This document shows, one piece after another, positions 4,233 to 62,293 of a stretch of DNA of 64,000 nt; position 1 is the stretch's first letter; each line of letters opens with the position of its first letter. The notes beneath the pieces are model-generated. The model saw only the letters and a list, made by a program, of their open reading frames with translations, did not search any database and was not told where the DNA came from. The translations under genes and the position numbers were made by a program. The stretch comes from Cladosporium sp. IMV 00045. Its lineage: Eukaryota; Ascomycota; Dothideomycetes; Cladosporiales; Cladosporiaceae. The stretch is from positions 62,001 to 126,000 of the forward strand of contig MSJI02000807.1 in NCBI GenBank assembly GCA_001931905.2, read 5' to 3'.

Positions 4233-5310
4233 TGTGTATGATGATAGATCTTTTCGTGTATCGAAGTGTCGTGTGATGTGTTTAGTCGTATATGATATTG
4301 CAGGGATGTAACTGTGGAATTGTATGAGGGAAACAAAAGACAGAGTAAGAGCGACCAACCTACATTGATATACTGTACCTCGATCTCAATGACGAACCAC
4401 GATCAGCCCCCTCTTAATCCTCAGACCTCATCGATCCGCAGCGACCCCAAACGACGCGCAAGAAAAAGTCTCCTGGGAGGAGCAACAGCCCCAGAAGCTA
4501 TCGATCGAAAGGTAATAGTAAAGATGGAACAGGGCCGAACCAGGCCCCCAGCAGCCTCCTCTACTAATCCATCAAAGCAAGAAGCAGCGTCGAAGAGCAC
4601 GCAAAAGCCCCAGATCTCGCCCACCAGATCCTCTTGTGCCTGGATCGAAAAGCTTGAATGTCGTCTGCTGAGTCCCACCTCGTCGTCCGCCATTGGTCCC
4701 TCACCACGCCAGCGGCGTCGCCGCACCCGCATGCTGCGCGTTTTCGATTTGCTTCTGACAGAAGATCGCCCAAATGAGATCAACGACTGTGGCATGGAGA
4801 TCTGAGAGCAGAGAAGCTCGCCTAGGGCTCGATTCGTATCACATGCGTTTTGCGAACGGGGCGTTTGGGTGATGGTGCGACGATTTGGGGTCCAGATCTC
4901 CCTTGCTGAAAGAGGAGCAGGGTTTGGGAGTGATGTCATTAGACCAACGGGCGATTGATCAATGACACCTTGAAGCCAGACATGTTCGTGATACAGAAGA
5001 TGGCACGGATGGTTCTTTGGCACGATACGAAGCAATTGACAAATACACAAATAGAATCCACAGTCAAGGTCATTGAAGAAAAGTCTTTCTATTTCGATCA
5101 GGAGCTATCATCTCTCCGAGTGCGATAGGTTCAATCGCACCAACCGAAAATCGACATGAAAGCAAGCGCATTACTGAGAAAAAATCATTACATCGTTGGA
5201 AAGCAAGCAAACTCCCGGCTTTCCAAAATCCCTTTTACCCTTGACAAAAACGCCGTTGAAAAAGACACATGTCGAGCGTGGCTCTTGAGAACCGTAAGCT
5301 CTCACCGTAT
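4233..5310. other. Intergenic region between the small-protein gene and pyruvate carboxylase
   Basis: About 1.08 kb upstream of the 71-residue gene and downstream of the carboxylase stop. Open frames of up to about 200 codons exist on both strands, but they are Ser/Arg-rich and overlap each other without a recognisable domain. I interpret it as the promoter of the small gene plus the 3' region of the carboxylase. Confidence 0.5.
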
Positions 5311-8300
5311 CTACTTGACGATCTTGCAGACCAGGTCCTGGCTGTCGACGGAGTCGCCCTCCTTGACGCCGAGAGAACCGATCTTGCCAGAGTGAGGGGC
5401 GGAGATGACCATTTCCTGTGAAAAATAAATGTTAGCACATTGATCGATATTGGATTGTATAGCATCGTTAAACTCACCATCTTCATGGCGGAAAGGACAC
5501 CGATGGGGTCGCCCTTCTGAACCTCGCTGCCATCCTTGACGCGAACCTCGACGACAACACCAGACATGGGGGCGCCAACCTGGGAGCTGTCGGAGGTGTC
5601 GGCCTTGGGGCGGCTCTTGTTCTCGACAGCGGCGTGCTTGTCGTCGACCGTGACTTGGCGAACCTCTCCGTTCATCTCATAGAAGACCTCGCGTTGGCCA
5701 GTCTGGTCGCTAAGCGGGCCGATGGCAAGAAGCTTGAGGATGAGGACCTTGCCCTTCTCAAGCTCAACCTGGAACTCCTCGCCAATCTCGGGCCTGTTGA
5801 GGAAATACTTAGTCGGCAGGACGGAGAGATCACCGTACTTGGCAGTGAACTTCTTGTAGTCCTCGAACACCTTGGGGTACATGGCGTAGGAGGCAACGTC
5901 GCACTCGGAGCAGCCACCGTACTTCTCCTTGAGCGTCTTGCGGATGCCATCAAAGTCGAAGGGTGCGAGGTAGAGACCAGGACGCTTGTCCATCTTGCGG
6001 CGCTCACGAAGAGCCTGGGTGCGGAGAGGCTCAGGGAAGCCGCCATAGGGCTGGCCCATGAGACCCTCGAAGAACTCGAGGACCGAGGACGGGAAGTCAA
6101 GCTCGGGAGCCTTGCGGACAAGCTCCTCGGCGGTGAGGTTATTGGAGACCATGAACTGAGCCAGGTCACCAACGACCTTGGAGGTGGGGGTGACCTTGAC
6201 GATGTCGCCGAGAAGGTCGTTGGCCTGCTCGTAGGCCTTCTTGGTCTGCGCCCACTGAGCGCCAAGGCCCTGCTGGGAAGCCTGGAAGATCAGGTTGGTG
6301 AGCTGACCACCGGGAATCTCGTGCTCGTAAACCTCGGGGTCAGGGCCAGTGAGACCAGCCTCGAATGGCGAGTAAACGAGACGGACCTGAGCCCAGTAGC
6401 TGTCAATGGCGCGCAGGTGCTGCGGGCTAAGACCAGGGTCGTAGTCACCACCCTCAAGAGATGCAGTCAGAGCACCAATGGAAGGCTGCGAGGTCATGCC
6501 AGACATGCTGTCAGTGGCGGCATCAACGGCGTCAGCGCCAGCCTGGGCACATGCGACCATTGAGGCAACGCCGGTACCAGCGGAGTCGTGGGTGTGCACG
6601 TGAATCGGGAGGTCAGGGTACTTCTCCCTAATAGCACCAATAAGAAGAGTAGCGGCACGCGGCTTCAGTACACCTGCCATATCCTTGACTCCGAGAATGT
6701 GGGCTCCCATCTTCACAATCTTGTCGACAACGCTGAGGTAGTATTCGAGAGTGTACTTCTTCTCAGGGTTGAGCATGTCTCCACTGTAACACATCGTACC
6801 CTCCGCAATTGCGCCAGCCTTGAGAACGGCCTTGATACCGACCTCGAGCTGATCCACATCGTTCAAAGCGTCGAAGACACGGAAGATGTCCATACCATTC
6901 TTCTTAGCCTGCTCGCAGAAGTGGTAGATGGCGTTGTCGGGAAGGGAGGAGTAGGCAACACCGTTGGCGCCACGGAGAAGGCACTGGAAGGGGATGTTGG
7001 GCACGAGCTTCCTCATCTTGCGCAGACGGTCCCAGGGGTCCTCATACAAGAAACGCATGGCGACGTCGAAGGTAGCACCACCCCAGCACTCGAGAGCCCA
7101 GGCGTTGCTGAGAGCGTAGCTAGTCTCCTTGGCGATGTTGCAGAAGTCGACGGTGCGGACTCTGGTGGCGAGGAGCGACTGGTGGGCGTCGCGCCAGGTG
7201 GTGTCCATGATCAAACATCCCTTGTGTGCTCTTACTGCCTTGGCGAAGGCGTCGGGGCCCTGCTCGGTGATGATGTTCCTCCAGCCCTTAGTGCATGGGA
7301 CGGAGGTGTCGATGGCCTTGCCGCTGGCGTCGTTGAGAGTAGGCATAATGACATCGCCCTTGAACTTGGACTCGCCAATCTGGCCAGCAATCTGGCTGCC
7401 GTTGACGGCAAGGTCACCAAGGTAGGTGAGGAGCTTCTGAGCACGGTTCTGGCTGCCAATAAGCTTGAACAGCTCCGGGGTGTCGTCGATGAAGGTGGTC
7501 CAGCAGGTGCCGTCGATGAAAGTCTCGTGGGTGAGGAGGGAAGCGAGGAAAGGAATGTTGGTCTTGACACCACGGATACGGAACTCGACCAGAGCGCGAA
7601 GCATCTTTCTGCGAGCGATCTCGTAGGTGGAGCCCAAGCACGTGCACTTGACAAGCATGGAATCGTAGTGAGGGGTGATGATAGCACCCGCAAATCCGTT
7701 ACCACCGTCGAGACGCACACCGTTGCCACCGGCGGAGCGGTAGACCTCGATCTTGCCAGTGTCGGGCTTGAAGCCCTGGGAGGGGTCCTCAGTGGTGATA
7801 CGGCACTGGATGGCAAAGCCACGGGTAGTGATGCGGTCCTGGGTCAGACCAAGCTGCTCGAGCGAAGCACCGGCAGCAATCTGGATCTGAGCAGCGACAA
7901 TATCGATGCCAGTGATTTCCTCAGTGATGGTGTGCTCGACCTGGATACGAGGGTTGATCTCGATGAAGTAGTAGCGGTTCTCCTGGTCAACCAAGAACTC
8001 AGCAGTACCGGCGTTGCGGTAGTTGACAGACTTTGCGAGCTTGACGGCGTCGGCAAGAATGGCGTCTCTGGTCTCGACAGGGAGATCCTTGGCCGGAGCA
8101 AGCTCGACGACTTTCTGGTGTCTACGCTGGACGGAGCAGTCACGCTCGAAGAGGTGAACGACGTTGCCGTGGCTGTCACCGAGGAGCTGGACCTCAATGT
8201 GCTTAGGCTTGTGCAAGAAACGCTCGATGAAGACGGTACCGTTGCCGAAAGCAGACTTGGCCTCGGAGGTGGCACGCTCGAAGGAGTCTTTGAGCTCCTC

Positions 8301-9235
8301 CTGCTTCCACACAACACGCATACCACGTCCACCGCCACCGAAGGCGGCCTTGATGATGATGGGGAAGCCGTAGGTGTCGGTGAAGCTCTTGGCCTCCTCG
8401 AACTTCGCAACCGGGCCAGGGGTGCCGGGAACGACGGGAACCTCGCACTTGATAGCGAGATCACGGGCAGAGACCTTGTCACCGAGGTCTCTGATGGTCT
8501 CTGGGGTGGGACCGATCCAGATCAGACCAGATTCTTCCACCTTTTTCGCAAATTCGTAGTTTTCACTGAGGAAACCATAGCCGGGGTGGATGAGGTTGAC
8601 GCCTTGAAAGAATTGTTAGCAATTGTTTGTATTTATATTGATCCTCGCTGCGAAGGGTCCATTGGGTGCAAAATTAGGCCATCCACTTCAATGTAGTGTC
8701 TTAAAGAAGGAACGACCCAATTGCAACTGCCTCTTTGAACTCTCACCAGTGCAATCACACTGGTAATGTCCAGAGTATTCGATAGCACCACATTGGTTTC
8801 GTGAATACCACAAAATCGACAATGCAAACAAGAAAATTTAAGAAAAACCAACTCACCATGGTCAAGAGCGATCTTGATGATTTCGTCACCAGCCAAGTAG
8901 GCGGCGACAGGAGTGTACTGGCCACGCTTGCCAATCACGTAGGCCTCGTCGGCCTTTTGCCTGTGCATGCCCAGGCGATCCTCGTAGGAGAAGACGGCGA
9001 CGGTCTGGAGGGACAGCTCGTGGGCGGTACGGAAGATACGGATGGGGATCTCGCCGCGGTTGGCGACGAGGAGCTTGTTGAGGTGCATGATGCTGCTGTT
9101 GGCGCGCAGACGCGAGTGCACGGTGTTTGCGGTGTGGTGAGTCTCGCCGTGCTCGTCGGGCGTGCCGTACTCGTGGTGAGTGGCATGGTCGTTCATGATG
9201 TCCGCCCTGTTGGCGGCTGCGAGGTCGGAAGACAT
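5311..9235 (-). CDS. pyc: Pyruvate carboxylase
   Basis: Three exons, complement(5311..5415, 5478..8602, 8857..9235), encode 1,202 residues, the usual fungal length. The enzyme carboxylates pyruvate to oxaloacetate using bicarbonate, ATP and biotin. The biotin carboxylase domain (about 50-500) begins with NKLLVANRGEIPIRIFR and contains the glycine-rich ATP loop GGGGRGMR. The carboxyltransferase domain opens with MDTTWRDAHQSLLATRVRT (about 590 onward), and the biotinyl domain holds the AMKM motif, with the acceptor Lys at residue 1167. The last intron (62 nt) falls directly after that Met codon. No clear mitochondrial leader precedes the first domain, consistent with the cytosolic fungal enzyme. 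The first intron is long for this window (254 nt). The ATG at 9235 is the first methionine of the conserved acidic N-terminal extension. Confidence 0.97.
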
Positions 9236-12133: not shown

Positions 12134-15100
12134 TTATCTGAAGCCACCGTAGCCAGTCGCCTGAGGCATCATGCCGTTCATGTTGCCACCGTACATGCCA
12201 CCAGTCGCGGGCGCGCCAGTCTGCTGCGGGCCCTGAGTGAGCAGAAGTCTGCTCTGGCCGAGGATGGGGCCGTCGTCCTCCTGCTTTTGAGTAGAGACCT
12301 CACGAGCCTTGCGCTCTTCGTTGTCCTTGCGCAGAGTCTCGATGGCAGCTGCTTGCTGCGACATGTAGTTGATCATGAAGGGCATGGTGAAGTCGGAGAG
12401 GCCGTGGCGCCATGAGAGCTCCATGACGGTGTGCAGGGGAATGAGGTCGTAGCAAGCGTAAAGCATGCCGACGAAGCACTCCTTGCTGCCGATGTCGACG
12501 AACTATAGGGTAACACGTTAGCAAATGAAAGTGTAAAAAAGAAGAATGTTAGACTTACGTAGTTGACAAGCTCCTCGACGACCTCGGGCTTGCCTGAGAT
12601 GGCAGAGGTCTCGATAGCATCCTTGTACAGCTTGTCCTGCTTGGAGAGGGCGATGGATTTGTCCCAGCGCTTGTTCTTGCGGTAGATGCTGGCGGCAATC
12701 TGGCGGAAGAAGACGAGATCGTGCTTCTCCAGCCTCTGGGCCAGGGCAACGGCCTCGTAGTTGTCGTAGCTTTCCACACTGTCGCGGAGAGTCTTGTAGT
12801 CTTCCTCCTCGATGAGCAGATCGTTGATGGCATCGTTGACCGCACGCTTGTTCTGAGGCTGCACGTTGAGCAGGAAAGGCTTAATGAGCGGGATGTTGTC
12901 GGACTTCTCGAACATGCGCACAACGCGGTTAACGTCGATGCGAGGAGTGAGGGCCTGCAGCAGGTCCGTGATCAGGGAAGGCTGCTCTTGGAGGTAGAAG
13001 TTGAGGGCCTTGTAGTAGATCTCCAAGTTGGCGACCTTGACAATCGTCTCCTTGAAGCTTTGGTGCTCCCAAGCGTCCGCCGCACGCTCCATCATAGCCA
13101 GCGCGGCGTTGTCGTACTCGTCGTAGTGAGTGCTGTAAGTAAATGGTTAGTCTGGGTTGCTTTGTGGTGTTTCGTCAGCGCCTAAAAGACGTCCAGTCGT
13201 TATCCATGGTCCAGTGATGCTGCTTCAGATAAAGCAAGGGAAAGGTGGTGATTGTTGGTAGTGTCGGGCTCCTAAGAGGAGCTCGACGAAGCTGCTTCGA
13301 CAGCTGCTTTGTGAGCCTTGCCTTTGCGGTGCGCGCGCTCATTGCCAGGTGTTGAAAAAGCCTTTTGGCAGTATTTGCACCAGAATTTCTTCGCAGCAAG
13401 ATCCGCAGCGCGTCTGGCGGCTGCTCCGGGATTCTTGAGGACCTTCACCCTCGTAATGCCAGCGACTTTGTCTTGGTGTTTCTGCGTTTTGTAGTGGTTC
13501 TCAAGAGCATGATTGTCTTCAAAGGCGACGTTGCAGAGCTCACAGGCGAATTTGCGGAGTTTGACAGCCTTTGCGCCGGACTTTTTCTTGTATCCTTTGT
13601 TGGCGAGCTTTCCAGCAGCAGTCTGAGAAAAAACTTTGTTTCGGGCAGCAACTTGAGCAAGACGACGCTTTCTCTGTTCGGCGGCTTTTGCTTCGATTTC
13701 CTCTGCAGTGAGGCCCTTTTGCTCTCCGGGAATTTGTTCAGAGACAGAAACGTGCGAACAAGTGCCATCGTAGGGCAGATCTGTGAGGGACCAGGGACAA
13801 AGGCGCGGCATGCGGTAATCTTTCGAGCGAGATTGCATGGCCCAGAAGAGTATCGCGAAGGCGGCTTCAAGGGCGACAAACAGGACACGAAGCTTGTAGT
13901 ATTGTGAAGGTTTCGGAATGGAAGTCCAGCAGAGAAGTCCTTTGTGCGTAATTCTGTAGCCATCTTGCAACGAAGCTTTGACGAAGCGTGGCAGTTTGAT
14001 CTTCGACCGGTAGTTTCTAAAGCGTAATTTGACGCCGCGTTCTTTTTCCGTTCCGGATCCGACGTAGATCCTTGGGGGCGAACCCGGTCTCTGAAGCACA
14101 AGAAGGTAGACAGCCCAGAGCTTTTTCTTCTTCGTAGTGGGAAGTTTCTTCAAAAAGTCGATGGTGGGCGGATCCGCAGCCTGGAGAACATCCAACAAAC
14201 CAGGAGCAAAGACGACAGAAGATTCAACCAGGAGCTGTTCAATCGCTTCCTTGGTGGAGAGAACGATGCCGAAGACAGGGTTTTGAAGTTCGGCAGCCGA
14301 GAGAGAGAGCAGAGACCAGACGGTCATAACCGCGTACGCGATCATGTCGGCGGCCGTGAGGGCCATGATGGTATGGAAAGAGAGCGCAAATCGAATGAGT
14401 GATGAAGAAAGACCGAAATCCGAAGACAATTCGCAGAAAAAGCCCGACAGAGAACGACACCAGCCGACAGTTCGCAGAGAAAAGAGTCGAGAAAAGACCA
14501 GAAACCCAAGAGATGAGAAGTCCAAGGCCTCTGTTTACCTCCATCTTGAAGAAGGTATGAACAAGCGCCCAAGGAAGGACCGAGAAGTGTGGATGGAAAG
14601 ACCAACAAGAATCCATGGAAGGACCAGCTGAAATATTAGTAAAACAAGGAAAGAAATAAAAAAACTCACTAGAGAAAGACAAGCTCAGGCCAAAGATGAA
14701 CAGACTCGCAGGCAGCGAGACACTTGGGAATATTGAGACGACCCCAAAAGATGCGAACATGTTCCATGACACGCTCGGGACGGTATTTGGCAAAAGCCAC
14801 ACAGAGGGCAGTAAAGACGCCCATGTGGACTGAATCTGCACAAAATGTTAGTATAAAACAGTAGTAAAGAAAAGAAAAAAGCGATTGTAATTACCCAATC
14901 CAAGACCAGCCTCAAGCAGAGCGATCAGCTCGTCGAAGTAGCCGTTACGCTCGTACTGCTTGACAAGATCATCCAGCTCCTCTGCGTGGACGATGAGGTT
15001 GAGACCGCAAATTTGTGCGAGACGGAACTCCTTCTTAGCCACACAGGCCTCGTTGACCTGTTTCCAGACCTTGACGCTGTTTGCCTTGCGGGCGCATTCG

Positions 15101-18100
15101 ACAGCAGCTTGATAATCCTCGAGATGGACGAGAGTCGTTGCAAGCTTGGCCCAGTTGGAGATTGAGCTGAAGAAGATCTTGGCGGCCTCGTGGTAGCCCT
15201 CCTCGTAGGCCTTGTCACCAGACTCCTCGATGTTGGCCACATTGGTGGCGCGAAGGAAGTCTTCCAGCTCGTTGAGCTGATTGGTGCGAGCGAAGCAGAA
15301 TGCAAGAGCAGTATCGATAGGCGCCTCGCGGAGAGTCTTGCGAGCCATGCGGAGATACTTGATGAGGTCCTCGTCCTTGCCAGCGTGTGTGGCCGTCTCG
15401 ATGACCTCATTGTAGTTCGAGGGGTCCTGAGCCTTGATGTACGACTCAACAGAGTCGGTGACACGGAGACCGTCAAGCTGTGCCTTAGCCACCTTGCTCC
15501 ACACCTCAGGGAGATCAACCTGATCAGCGTACTCTTGGGCACGGTCGATGCTGACAACATGATCCACGAGAACGTTAGTAGCCTCCGCGTGGTTGTTGTC
15601 CTTCTTGTAGATCAGGAAAGCCTCCTCGTACATGCCGACCTCAATGCACTGTTGAGCAATATCCTCGGGACTGTAGGCATCGAGCTGCTGGATGTAGTTG
15701 GCGACACGGCCACGGTCAGACTTGGCAGCGGTCAACATAAGGAGGTTCTGCAGGTTGGAGTTGTCGCTGAAGGTAGTGGGCTCCAGAATGATCTTCTCCA
15801 AAAGCTCGATAAGCTCGACAGGCATGTCGGCATCGATGAAGGACTTCACAGCAATAGAAACGCGCTCGGGGTCATTGCTCTCAGGAACGGCAGTGGAGAT
15901 GACTTGGTCGACAAGCGAGCGTCTGTGGAGGTTGTTCTCGGAAAGCACGTAGGACCAGATCTCGGCGTCGGCACGCTCAATTAGATAACGAGCTTGCGCA
16001 CGGAACATGGAGTTCTCGTTCGTGATGCTGATCAGTTCAAGGTCATTCTGACCCTTGCTGTAGGCGATGAATGCCAAGTTGGGGTCGCGCTTTTCGCAGT
16101 ACTTGCCAACAGTGAGGGTGTCGTACATGTTGTTCTCCTTGAGGAACTTCTCGGGGTCGTTGTTGGAGTCGATGTAGATCTTCGCAAGTGCGTTGAAGAC
16201 AGCCTGCTGCTGGTTGCCAGAAGCCAAAGTGGCCTCAAGGAAAGGCAGAAGGAGCTTCAGGCGGTTACGCGACTCAACCTCCTGGACGAGCTCGTCGATG
16301 GGGATGCTCATCGGCGATACAGAGCTGAGCAGACCCTTGATGATGTTCTCGTCGCAGTCAACGTCAAGCAGACCACCGATGACGCCAGGAGTGCGTGCTG
16401 GGTTGACGCGCTGAACGTAGACCTCGATGGACTTGAATTGTTGGGCCTTGTACAGGTAGAGAACCAGGTCGTGAACGAAGTTGAAGCGGTCGCAAATGAT
16501 AATAAGTGGCAGCTGCTCGGTCAGGTTGGCCTCCTTCAGGAAATTCTTCACACGCTCGGGGTTAAGGCTGTTGGACTCGCGGCAGATGCGCTCGACTTCC
16601 TGCAGCTGACCCATCGTGGTGGCGGCTTCAATGTACTTGAAGGTAACATCCTCGTCTTCGGTGATGTTGACAATGCCACCGAGGTAGAAGTAGAGACCCT
16701 CAGCGGTGCGGTACTTCTCGAGCAGGTCAATGATCTTGGTAGGACCGAACAGATCGGAGTACTTCTTGGCGATGTTGATGACAGCTTGAAGGTTTTGGCG
16801 GATGTTGACCTTAAGCATCTCGTCAAGACACTCAAGAGCAAGCTCAACGGTAAGACGACCGAAGTAGTTCAGCAGGAACTCTTCAGGGATCTTGTCAGTC
16901 TGAACAATGCATCTCTTGATAGCGGCAGGGTCCTCGTAGTGCTCCAGAGCTCTGGTCAACAGGCCAGCGTTCTCGCAAAGCTGAGCAACGCGAGGCTTGT
17001 CGTAGTGGGAGAACATGTCGTTGCCAAGAATGGCGTCTGCAACCTGCGGAGCGTTCATAAGGTTCATCTCCAAGAGCCTGGTCTGCAGGTGTCCCTGCTC
17101 TGGCTGGTTGGCAGACAATACATCAAGCAGGAATGCAGTGGCCTGCTGGACCATGCCTTGAGACTGGAAGATGTCCACGGTGCGCTCGACGTCGATGAGG
17201 TTGATATCCTCCTTCGCAATGGCGGTCGCGAACTCGGCACCTTTCTCCGGGTTTACACGGACGATGTGCTGCAAAAGACCGTTGAAGTCCGGAGTGTAGC
17301 CAACGGAGCGAGAGTAGGGCAGGATGTCTTCGAAGTTGCCAGACTCAGCCATAGCGGCAATGACCTTTTGAGAAGCACCAGCCTGCTGGTAGATTTGTTT
17401 GGCGAGGTGAGCATCGTGAACGCGGACAAGATCACCAAGCTGCTCTGAGCATGCAAGCTTGGACTCATTCATCCATTTCTCGAGCAGGTGCTTGCGATTT
17501 TGCTGCAGAACTGGGCGAGCAAGTTCGAGAGTCTCGTGCTCGTTAAGCTTACCCTTGTCGAGCAGCATGCCGAAGTACTGCAGGATGACCGAGAGCTGAC
17601 CCTGCTGCTGCGGTACAGACTTGAACTTCTCGATCGTTTGCGGAGTGCGAAGGAAGCCTTGAGGCGAGTTCGCGGCAGTCTTAGCTGCAGACTGGTAGTC
17701 GCCAGAAGAAAGAAGTTGGTCGAAGCGCTGCTGGTAAAGCGAGTCCGCACCAGGCAAGCCGGCTCTTGATGCAAGCTTATACGCAAGCTCAGCGTTCTCT
17801 GGGTTTTGGAGGAGGTAAGGGATAAGGGTGGAGTCGTCCACGGAGACAGCAAGCACTTGACCCTTGCGGTTGACACCAACAATTCCAGATGAGTCGCCGT
17901 CGGGAGCAGTTGTGAAGATGGTGTCGCTAGAGATACGGTTCATGAAGATGGTGGTACCAGTCTCAAGATCGTAGAGGTGGATGAAGCCGTACTTGGTGAC
18001 CAGGTAGATGACCTTGTACTTGCTCGACACCTGCATGGCCACTGGGAAGTCGTTGGCGGCCTCCTGGGGGAAGTAGATGTCCACCGCGCGCTTCTGGAAC

Positions 18101-18932
18101 ACCGGGTTCGGTGCCTGGTGGTCAACCTCCACAATGTGCAGCTTCGCGCCGGTCGCTGTGCGGTTGGCGAAAGTGAAGAGCTTGGAGTCTGCAGGCGCAT
18201 CCTCGAGGCGCAGAGTGCCGAAAGCTGCAGCGTGACCCTCGATGGACTGGCTGATACCGCGATCGCGGGAGTACAGCTGCATGCTGCCCACAACGCGGTT
18301 GTTCTGCTGGGAGATGCCCACCACAACCATCCATTTCTCATCGTCGGCGACGCGGTAGTTGATGATCTGGCAGCCGGAAAGGTTCTGGTTGCGGTCGAAA
18401 ACTTTTGCCGGGGCAACTTGCGCAGGGTCGAAGATGTTCCAGTGGAAGACGCTAGTATCCGTGATGAGGCCAAGTGAGCTCTCGCTGAACCACTTCCAGT
18501 AAACCACATCCTCCGACATTGTTGCGCTCTTCAGCTTGCTCTTTTGTGCCAGGTCGAAAATCTGCAGCGTCTTGCCTCCGGCCTTGAGAGCGATGACCTG
18601 CTTGTTCCAATGCATTATGGCGCTGTCGGCCTTGATAGGCCTCTTCATGACATTGTTGCCATTCTTCAAGTCAACAATCAGCACCTCAGGCGAGGCGCTG
18701 CCCTCGGCCTGCTGCCTCACGCAGACATAGTGGTCGGATTCTAATGTACATGAGTTGAAACCTATCGATGCTGGCTGGTTCAGGCGTCAGCGAATGTTTG
18801 TTTTGGGCCGGAAGCCATTGGCGCATGTCGCGGCGCGGTGCATGCCGCCACAATTTTTGGACAACTCACCTGAACGCCGCACGAGGTCAAGGAAACCAGT
18901 TCTGTGAACTTAATAGGGAGCTGGGAAGCCAT
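12134..18932 (-). CDS. Clathrin heavy chain
   Basis: Five exons, complement(12134..12502, 12559..13132, 14670..14835, 14895..18774, 18870..18932), join without frame conflict to 1,683 residues, the normal size for clathrin heavy chain. The protein forms the triskelion leg of vesicle coats at the Golgi and plasma membrane. It starts MASQLPIKFTELVSLTS, has the N-terminal seven-blade propeller (about 1-330), then CHCR alpha-solenoid repeats to about 1,600, and a Gln/Gly/Met-rich tail with SRLLLTQGP. The third intron, after Tyr1370, is 1,537 nt long and contains a separate complete gene (13272-14366). The exon joint across it reads VFLY|THYDEYDNA, matching the conserved protein, so the host gene appears intact. 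The other introns are 95, 59 and 56 nt. Confidence 0.96.
13133..14669 (-). other. Giant (1,537-nt) intron of the clathrin heavy chain gene
   Basis: The donor GTGAGT starts at 14669 and the acceptor TTACAG ends at 13133, with a branch-like GACTAACC about 15 nt upstream of the acceptor. It is more than fifteen times longer than the other introns of this gene. A second complete set of signals lies just inside the 5' end: ACTAAT followed by TTTCAG ending at 14628, which would define a 42-nt intron. The body carries an intact nuclease-like gene on the same strand. Confidence 0.85.
13272..14366 (-). CDS. Intron-nested GIY-YIG nuclease-like protein with two C2H2 zinc fingers
   Basis: An uninterrupted 364-codon frame lies wholly inside a clathrin intron and reads on the same strand. 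Residues 84-119 fit the GIY-YIG core: the strand VYLLVL, then IYVGSGT (100-106), then an Arg-containing helix (R116 in RFRNY). A later helix with ALEAAF offers Glu167 as the possible metal-binding residue. A Lys/Arg-rich linker is followed by two U1-type C2H2 fingers, C275-C278-H291-H297 and C330-C333-H346-H352, both C-x2-C-x12-H-x5-H. The start at 14366 has a good context (ATCATGG) and is the first ATG in the frame. A nucleic-acid cutting or binding role is inferred from the domains; no target is known. The intact frame suggests selection or recent arrival. Confidence 0.75.
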   Translation of the reverse strand: MALTAADMIAYAVMTVWSLLSLSAAELQNPVFGIVLSTKEAIEQLLVESSVVFAPGLLDVLQAADPPTIDFLKKLPTTKKKKLWAVYLLVLQRPGSPPRIYVGSGTEKERGVKLRFRNYRSKIKLPRFVKASLQDGYRITHKGLLCWTSIPKPSQYYKLRVLFVALEAAFAILFWAMQSRSKDYRMPRLCPWSLTDLPYDGTCSHVSVSEQIPGEQKGLTAEEIEAKAAEQRKRRLAQVAARNKVFSQTAAGKLANKGYKKKSGAKAVKLRKFACELCNVAFEDNHALENHYKTQKHQDKVAGITRVKVLKNPGAAARRAADLAAKKFWCKYCQKAFSTPGNERAHRKGKAHKAAVEAASSSSS

Positions 18933-61576: not shown

Positions 61577-62293
61577 TCAGGTTTGTGATGTGGCAGTCAT
61601 TTCCGCCATGTTTCCTCCGAATACCTCAAACGGCGCTGTGAGTGTCGACATTGGCGGCGCGCCCGTCTGCATGGGAGCCGCAGGGTTGACGGTCTGAGGA
61701 GGCACCGGAGAGATCCCTTTGCGCGCATCTTTACGGGCGTGGCGCCAGCGGTGCACCATGATTGCGCTGTATATCAGCTCCAAGACACTGGCGAATAGAA
61801 ACAGGGCCGAGGCTGCTCCGAATATGGGACCCAAAGTACCGTCGAGTAGCAAATACGGAGTAAACCTTGCGATTGCAGCAGCAAGCAAGATCTTGAAGAT
61901 GCTGGACACGAGCGCGAAGACCGGATGCAGTCTCTTGGCCCCGAACAAGACGATGTCGGCAGATGTGAAGAAGGAGGACAGCAGGATCAATCCAAGGGAC
62001 GCCTTGACCGCGAGAAGCACAGCTACTATCACAACTTCCGCAGGAATCTCGTCGCTGATGGAGGAAAACGCAGACGCGAGATCGCCACCGTCGAACGTTT
62101 TCCTGAAGATGATTGCAGAAGCTGTGCAGGCGGCAAGTGATATGGCTTGGGCAACCAAGATAGGAGCCAAGAGACCCTTCTTCCATCGGCCAGAGTAGTT
62201 GGTGGTTACGCCGTCCGCCGCGCCGTCCATAGTCTCCACTGCCGCACCAGAAGTCGGTGCCTTCGCGAAGGGCATGAAGCTGAGGCAATTCAT
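61577..62293 (-). CDS. Four-transmembrane fungal protein of unknown function
   Basis: The ATG at 62293 opens a 238-codon single exon. Four hydrophobic segments are clear: LAPILVAQAISLAACTASAI, VVIVAVLLAVKASLGLILL, VFALVSSIFKILLAAAIARF and ALFLFASVLELIYSAIM. The C-terminal tail is Pro/Thr/Met-rich and soluble, with the basic stretch HRWRHARKDARKG just after the last segment. The layout resembles small fungal integral membrane proteins of unknown role; I do not recognise a family. It converges on the FMP32-like gene with 290 nt between stops. Confidence 0.7.
   Translation of the reverse strand: MNCLSFMPFAKAPTSGAAVETMDGAADGVTTNYSGRWKKGLLAPILVAQAISLAACTASAIIFRKTFDGGDLASAFSSISDEIPAEVVIVAVLLAVKASLGLILLSSFFTSADIVLFGAKRLHPVFALVSSIFKILLAAAIARFTPYLLLDGTLGPIFGAASALFLFASVLELIYSAIMVHRWRHARKDARKGISPVPPQTVNPAAPMQTGAPPMSTLTAPFEVFGGNMAEMTATSQT

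Follow-up and report, generated by a model that had tools for sequence, protein, structure and literature searches.

The stretch analysed here, called the window throughout, comprises the 64,000 nucleotides (nt) at positions 62,001 to 126,000 of contig MSJI02000807.1 in the Cladosporium sp. IMV 00045 assembly GCA_001931905.2. It carries on its minus strand a clathrin heavy chain (CHC) gene whose reading frame, with the introns taken out, spans 1,620 open codons from position 18648, where the model begins, to the stop. One CHC intron contains a second gene on the same strand, encoding a predicted GIY-YIG nuclease with zinc fingers, and this intron is our subject. A sequence-only reading of the window had placed a 364-codon gene within a single clathrin intron, and this was borne out: the intron runs from 14669 to 13133, measures 1,537 nt and has GT-AG ends. 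The features of the locus are as follows.

13133..14669, minus strand: CHC intron with nuclease gene, 1,537 nt, GTGAGT...TTACAG (splice-site reading, Rfam null)
13272..14366, minus strand: open reading frame (ORF) of 364 amino acids, GIY-YIG nuclease with C-terminal zinc fingers (ORF, Pfam, alignment, structure prediction)
13746..14123, minus strand: predicted GIY-YIG fold, residues 82-207, with Y87, Y101, G103, R115 and E167 (predicted structure)
13473..13553, minus strand: zinc finger 1, residues 272-298, zf-C2H2_jaz (Pfam)
13296..13391, minus strand: zinc finger 2, residues 326-357, zf-U1 (Pfam)
14631..14669, minus strand: intron 5' end GTGAGT...CTAATATTT, also in the HSP70 nuclease intron (pattern match, supporting only)
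13133..13150, minus strand: branch-site-like CTAAC and 3' splice site, CTAACCATTTACTTACAG (sequence)
14670..14835, minus strand: CHC exon directly upstream of the intron, co-conversion candidate (codon usage)
14836..14894, minus strand: 59-nt CHC intron; the atypical codon tract ends at or within it, with normal usage further upstream (codon usage)
14895..18648, minus strand: main CHC exon of the host gene (Pfam Clathrin, Clathrin_propel)

Across the long intron the clathrin exons join from ...HLWPELVFLY to (Y)THYDEYDNAALAMMERA, and the neighbouring CHC introns are short (59 nt at 14894..14836, and 56 nt). The nuclease ATG lies 303 nt past the 5' splice site and its stop codon 139 nt ahead of the 3' splice site, with a CTAAC branch-like site 13 nt from the intron end. 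This intron and a related one in an HSP70 gene, described below, share what read as typical spliceosomal donor and acceptor signals (GTGAGT at the 5' end, CTAAC 12-13 nt from the terminal AG). No group I or group II signature was detected at either locus (Rfam, 0 matches at E<=1 for the clathrin locus L001 and the HSP70 locus L002), and a group I intron, which would have a conserved ribozyme core, was rejected at clathrin on this ground. A tRNA scan of the window found none. The 49.9-Mb assembly yielded one CHC locus; because this single gene is otherwise open, we infer that clathrin can be made only if the long intron is taken out. Translation of the nuclease from the host transcript appears unlikely because ATGs precede its start in both nuclease introns (two and six). 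At clathrin, a 173-amino-acid ORF (14239-14760) also overlaps the leader and, together with the upstream ATGs, may limit nuclease translation from the clathrin transcript.

The nuclease ORF yields 364 amino acids on the minus strand, while a plus-strand reading of the interval is broken by stops. Above its cut-offs Pfam recognised C2H2/U1-type fingers only, the two that had been read from the sequence. The GIY-YIG assignment came from structure prediction, which the sequence-only reading had named as a check on its proposed fold; the predicted fold is GIY-YIG, though the Pfam GIY-YIG profile matched none of seven core sequences at E<=10. Sequence-level searches for GIY-YIG (Pfam with the whole protein, 45 members and 7 cores; PHROGs with 3 cores; PDB) returned chiefly zinc fingers or nothing, and Foldseek gave weak results with the full-length model and a fold match with the core model. 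Y87, Y101, G103 and Glu167, the last already singled out as a candidate, are invariant in 45/45 aligned sequences, R115 is kept in 43/45, and the Tyr...Tyr-x-Gly motif is present in 54 of 56 family proteins. A Penelope-like element, the GIY-YIG retroelement, was considered and rejected: the protein, which fills 1,095 of the 1,537 nt, has no reverse transcriptase domain, a check that covered the 364-amino-acid protein while the other intron ORFs of at least 100 amino acids, which overlap it, were left unscanned.

Protein searches of the assembly with four family members revealed two clear loci, clathrin and contig C890, other matches being weak (E 0.007 or worse). The C890 copy, 348 amino acids from its likely start, lies on the same strand in an intron of a gene identified by eye as HSP70. 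Its scaffold holds the middle part of HSP70 twice, separated by a 20-N gap: a full version with a 1,674-nt nuclease intron (L002 1350-3023) and an empty version with a 57-nt intron (L002 3514-3570) at the identical position. Within this scaffold the gene's 5' part occurs on the empty side only and its 3' part on the full side only. We infer that the duplicate represents two alleles of one locus laid end to end by the assembler, and the arrangement suggests that the sequenced sample held both; the 57-nt version is a natural empty site. The empty-site comparison proposed for clathrin was thus obtained at the sister locus, while no empty clathrin allele was found. The full and empty HSP70 exons differ at 13 of 470 bases, seven of these differences falling within the final 16 exon bases ahead of the 5' splice site (clustering at P about 8e-8, with a tract boundary picked after the data were seen). 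This tract encodes KRKNKR as opposed to KRKNKK; four changes are synonymous and three form one K-to-R codon.

The HSP70 mismatch cluster led us to inspect the corresponding clathrin exon. This 166-nt exon (14670-14835) has a codon adaptation of 0.45; the 1,457 other windows of clathrin, with reference codons taken from the same gene, all lie at 0.645 or above, and none is as low as the exon. None of 2,415 windows from clathrin, pyruvate carboxylase and HSP70 was equally atypical in a leave-one-out control for which the pyruvate carboxylase tail was trimmed and clathrin exon 3 and HSP70 were added. In the untrimmed control 66 of 2,121 host windows scored at or below the exon, which we attribute to the pyruvate carboxylase ORF overrunning its last coding exon; codon windows overlap, so that these counts are not independent. 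The codon choice of the exon is nearer to the nuclease gene than that of any host window (0.242 log units per codon, the highest host window reaching 0.069), and the exon aligns gap-free to animal clathrin. The exon downstream of the intron shows normal codon usage from its first codons. Taken together, the codon data at clathrin and the mismatch tract at HSP70 mean that at both loci it is the exon 5' of the intron that looks foreign yet keeps the protein going, and not the one 3' of it. Such 5'-only tracts match what exon co-conversion from an outside template during homing predicts. Intron-homing element and domesticated nuclease had been put forward side by side in the sequence-only reading, a pair that the predicted GIY-YIG fold supports and between which the co-conversion-like tracts favour homing. 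Exon co-conversion tracts have been described for self-splicing introns; they require a template external to the population, the alternative being error-prone repair (PMC5378118).

The suggestion that the protein belongs to a dispersed family also held. An initial protein search returned 51 matches, the protein of the window itself among them and most lacking genomic context, and a search for longer proteins gave four more, all fused to host exons. These were P0052 (Meristemomyces frigidus, clathrin), P0053 (Elsinoe australis, pyruvate carboxylase), P0054 (Cosmosporella, aconitase) and P0055 (Elasticomyces elasticus, aconitase); a third search with P0054 as query added P0056 (Lachnellula arida), which lies in DED1. 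Among the 55 relatives retrieved, seven were placeable as fused gene models and 48 had no readable location; the HSP70 copy is the eighth placed, and all eight placeable relatives sit between exons of conserved genes. Five of the seven models stem from searches restricted by design to longer proteins, so the set of placed relatives cannot be read as unbiased. Host exons flank the nuclease on both sides in P0056 and on one side in the other six, including P0049, whose C-terminal part is ATP synthase beta (EYFRDEEGQDVLLF...), and P0024, whose C-terminal part is the DED1 C terminus. P0052 passes into clathrin sequence at IHYDEFDNAALAMMERA, where the clathrin intron of the window has its junction too. 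Compared with solved host proteins, the break points fall at GAIVEY/ and ANACG/ in aconitase, RQIER/GCDLLVATPGR in DED1, GAIIT/ in pyruvate carboxylase and /EYFRDEEG in ATP2, although these junctions come from automatic annotation and may be some codons off. In host alignments conservation is strong at the aconitase, ATP2 and first DED1 sites and moderate at pyruvate carboxylase and the second DED1 site (P0024). Altogether six conserved host genes are involved, and two fungi carry a copy at one and the same clathrin junction; with nine copies placed, the number does not suffice for a statistic on target specificity.

Of 57 cores recovered, 56 went into a tree, P0045 being too short. The tree neither unites nor rejects a grouping of the two clathrin copies, or of the four from Elasticomyces, and so proves neither orthology nor transfer. 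Single-pattern searches of IMG/VR and GTDB contigs gave 18 and 4 matching stretches, none confirmed as relatives, and the name 'cpa2' on P0017, P0030 and P0033, which may be a transferred label, was not counted as host-gene evidence. The Elasticomyces elasticus records (P0049, P0051, P0055, P0017) include several very divergent members, so one species can host several lineages, and P0049 and P0051 are nearly alike. P0045 comes from Lipomyces kononenkoae, a yeast-lineage ascomycete, which hints at a wide distribution.

Scored against the 5' end of the HSP70 nuclease intron, the clathrin nuclease intron reaches 34 and the resident HSP70 intron 14; the similarity of the two nuclease introns is attained in 6 of 5000 shuffles. 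Ordinary clathrin introns score 20 and 24 against the same HSP70 end, and the ordinary 59-nt clathrin intron scores equally high (34) against the clathrin nuclease intron. In the assembly the 5'-end pattern is matched twice, each time in a nuclease intron, against 0 in the control; it was chosen after both introns were seen, with 1-2 chance matches expected by a uniform-base estimate, and this likeness is supporting only. At clathrin a CAG follows the segment, which gives it the look of a complete mini-intron. In the HSP70 copy a stop codon lies within the branch site; this was rejected as a family rule, since an LD or DI terminus is seen in just 4 of 56 proteins.

The HSP70 target position has a resident intron, which also occurs in an HSP70-family paralogue on contig C496. 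The closest aconitase in the genome (88%) is uninterrupted at both positions used by the family and has an intron four codons past the second, while a 62% aconitase paralogue has an intron at the second position. These patterns may mean that the family uses junctions with and without a resident intron, with annotation error and intron loss as reservations. Two aconitase paralogues (L034 near 2773; L036 near 1999) differ in an intron after VLANACG, the Elasticomyces elasticus fusion site. Pyruvate carboxylase (5235-8321) adjoins clathrin in the window and is intronless and empty at the Elsinoe australis site.

We consider it probable, at roughly three chances in four, that the clathrin element is a spliceosomal homing intron: an intron of a nuclear gene, excised by the spliceosome and encoding its own GIY-YIG homing endonuclease. 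The nuclease would be made from the intron, probably via its own promoter in the 303-nt leader. Judging from fold and residues, the zinc fingers and other parts would bind, and the GIY-YIG domain would cut, a conserved exon/intron-boundary sequence of an element-free allele. The break would then be repaired from the element-bearing allele, copying the whole intron and a stretch of upstream exon, a step supported by the HSP70 empty site and the foreign-looking 5' exons at both loci. The spliceosome would take the intron out as one unit, so that the essential host gene keeps working, and the altered upstream exon may shield its own host allele from cutting. Conserved housekeeping targets would permit movement between species by putative horizontal transfer. 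Because relatives sit inside introns of several other essential fungal genes, our data suggest that nuclear introns can act as selfish, mobile DNA. Evenly poised, in our judgement, is the wider proposition that ascomycete nuclear genomes hold active, horizontally moving spliceosomal homing introns in essential genes, acting as natural homing drives, in which a co-converted, recoded upstream exon gives immunity and introns are planted at uninterrupted sites.

Several observations weigh against a spliceosomal homing intron and are considered here with the explanations they would favour. If the nuclease gene alone were mobile and entered existing introns as safe harbours, the intron itself being immobile, a resident intron would be expected where one is seen at HSP70 and its C496 paralogue; the nuclease-intron 3' ends carry only generic branch and acceptor signals, and the scores of 20 and 24 show that ordinary introns share some of the 5' likeness. 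We nevertheless regard this as unlikely, given the score of 34 compared with 14, a change at HSP70 that reaches beyond the nuclease gene into the upstream exon, and the intronless aconitase (both sites) and pyruvate carboxylase positions that are used in other species. It is very improbable that the gene is domesticated, or an ordinary nuclear gene nested in the intron by chance and no longer mobile. The ORF is intact while the activity of its protein is predicted only, and the motif is missing in two of 56 proteins, one of them P0051 from the same species as P0049; set against this are a family lying between exons of six different host genes, the full/empty pair at HSP70 and the co-conversion-like flanks.

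The exon differences might instead reflect error-prone break repair or splicing constraints with no foreign template copied, and PMC5378118 names mutagenic repair as an alternative for clusters of single-nucleotide polymorphisms beside mobile introns. This appears distinctly unlikely for tracts in which, at HSP70, all seven changes are either synonymous (four) or part of one K-to-R codon and, at clathrin, the frame is kept over 54 codons of nuclease-like usage, with a gap-free alignment of the exon to animal clathrin. Improbable, too, is that the HSP70 versions are mis-joined paralogues and not alleles, as the gap of exactly 20 N and the partial state of both versions might indicate. The complementary 5' and 3' parts argue for alleles, as do identity at 448 of 454 positions outside the 16-nt tract and a next best assembly match of 76% (searched with the downstream exon, not the 5' part); a paralogue would still count as an empty site.

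Among known systems, I-TevI and other GIY-YIG homing endonucleases of group I introns share with the fungal protein the fold predicted here and the same kind and order of key residues, the equivalence of the residues being presumed. I-TevI has a zinc-binding module behind its nuclease domain, as the fungal protein has fingers after its core. Unlike that type, the fungal intron has no self-splicing signature, and its protein has classical C2H2/U1-type fingers and no Pfam-level sequence similarity. Introner-like elements are mobile spliceosomal introns of fungi that occur in many similar short copies, whereas the nuclease introns, likewise mobile and spliceosomal in our reading, are single divergent copies encoding a nuclease. 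An introner was rejected on finding one DNA match per nuclease intron in the assembly (lower bounds). Fungal introner-like elements are mentioned in PMC11889510.

In faustovirus the capsid gene, likewise essential, has introns that harbour GIY-YIG genes, and some of its introns are called potentially spliceosomal; it differs in that the splice sites are non-canonical, that it also contains several group I introns, and that the genome is that of a giant virus (PMC6247863). Nuclear ribosomal DNA (rDNA) group I introns with His-Cys homing endonuclease genes likewise combine such a gene with a nuclear intron and differ in their rDNA site, group I ribozyme and nuclease family (PMC9548176). In viruses the idea is already known from the shintrons of mirusviruses, GT-AG spliceosomal introns with GIY-YIG, HNH, VSR-like or PD-(D/E)XK endonuclease genes; PMC12768974 states that such endonucleases were previously unseen with spliceosomal introns and that laboratory cultures are still to be established for mechanistic work. 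Shintrons and the fungal introns alike have endonuclease genes in GT-AG introns of conserved genes without group I/II signatures. Shintrons, however, occupy giant-virus genomes and mostly virion genes (PMC12768974), while the fungal element occupies housekeeping genes of a 49.9-Mb cellular assembly. The fungal case further differs in its zinc-finger GIY-YIG family, for which the single-pattern scan of IMG/VR confirmed no member, and in its empty site and co-conversion-like exons, the two being likened by description, not sequence. We class the clathrin element as a cellular counterpart and not as a mirusvirus shintron, the only described setting of shintrons being the mirusvirus genome. No cellular spliceosomal homing intron appeared in the titles and abstract openings of the literature searched, whose coverage leaves out most subscription papers and preprints; on that footing we regard the cellular, fungal version as new beside the known viral one.

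If this interpretation is correct, spliceosomal homing introns would extend from giant viruses to a cellular genome, and nuclear introns would possess a DNA-level mobility for which an empty site and exon tracts are at hand as a testing ground. Many ascomycetes can be cultured, so that the idea is directly testable. The element would further offer a mechanism by which introns are gained and transferred at conserved positions, and would stand as the natural equivalent of a homing drive placed in housekeeping genes.
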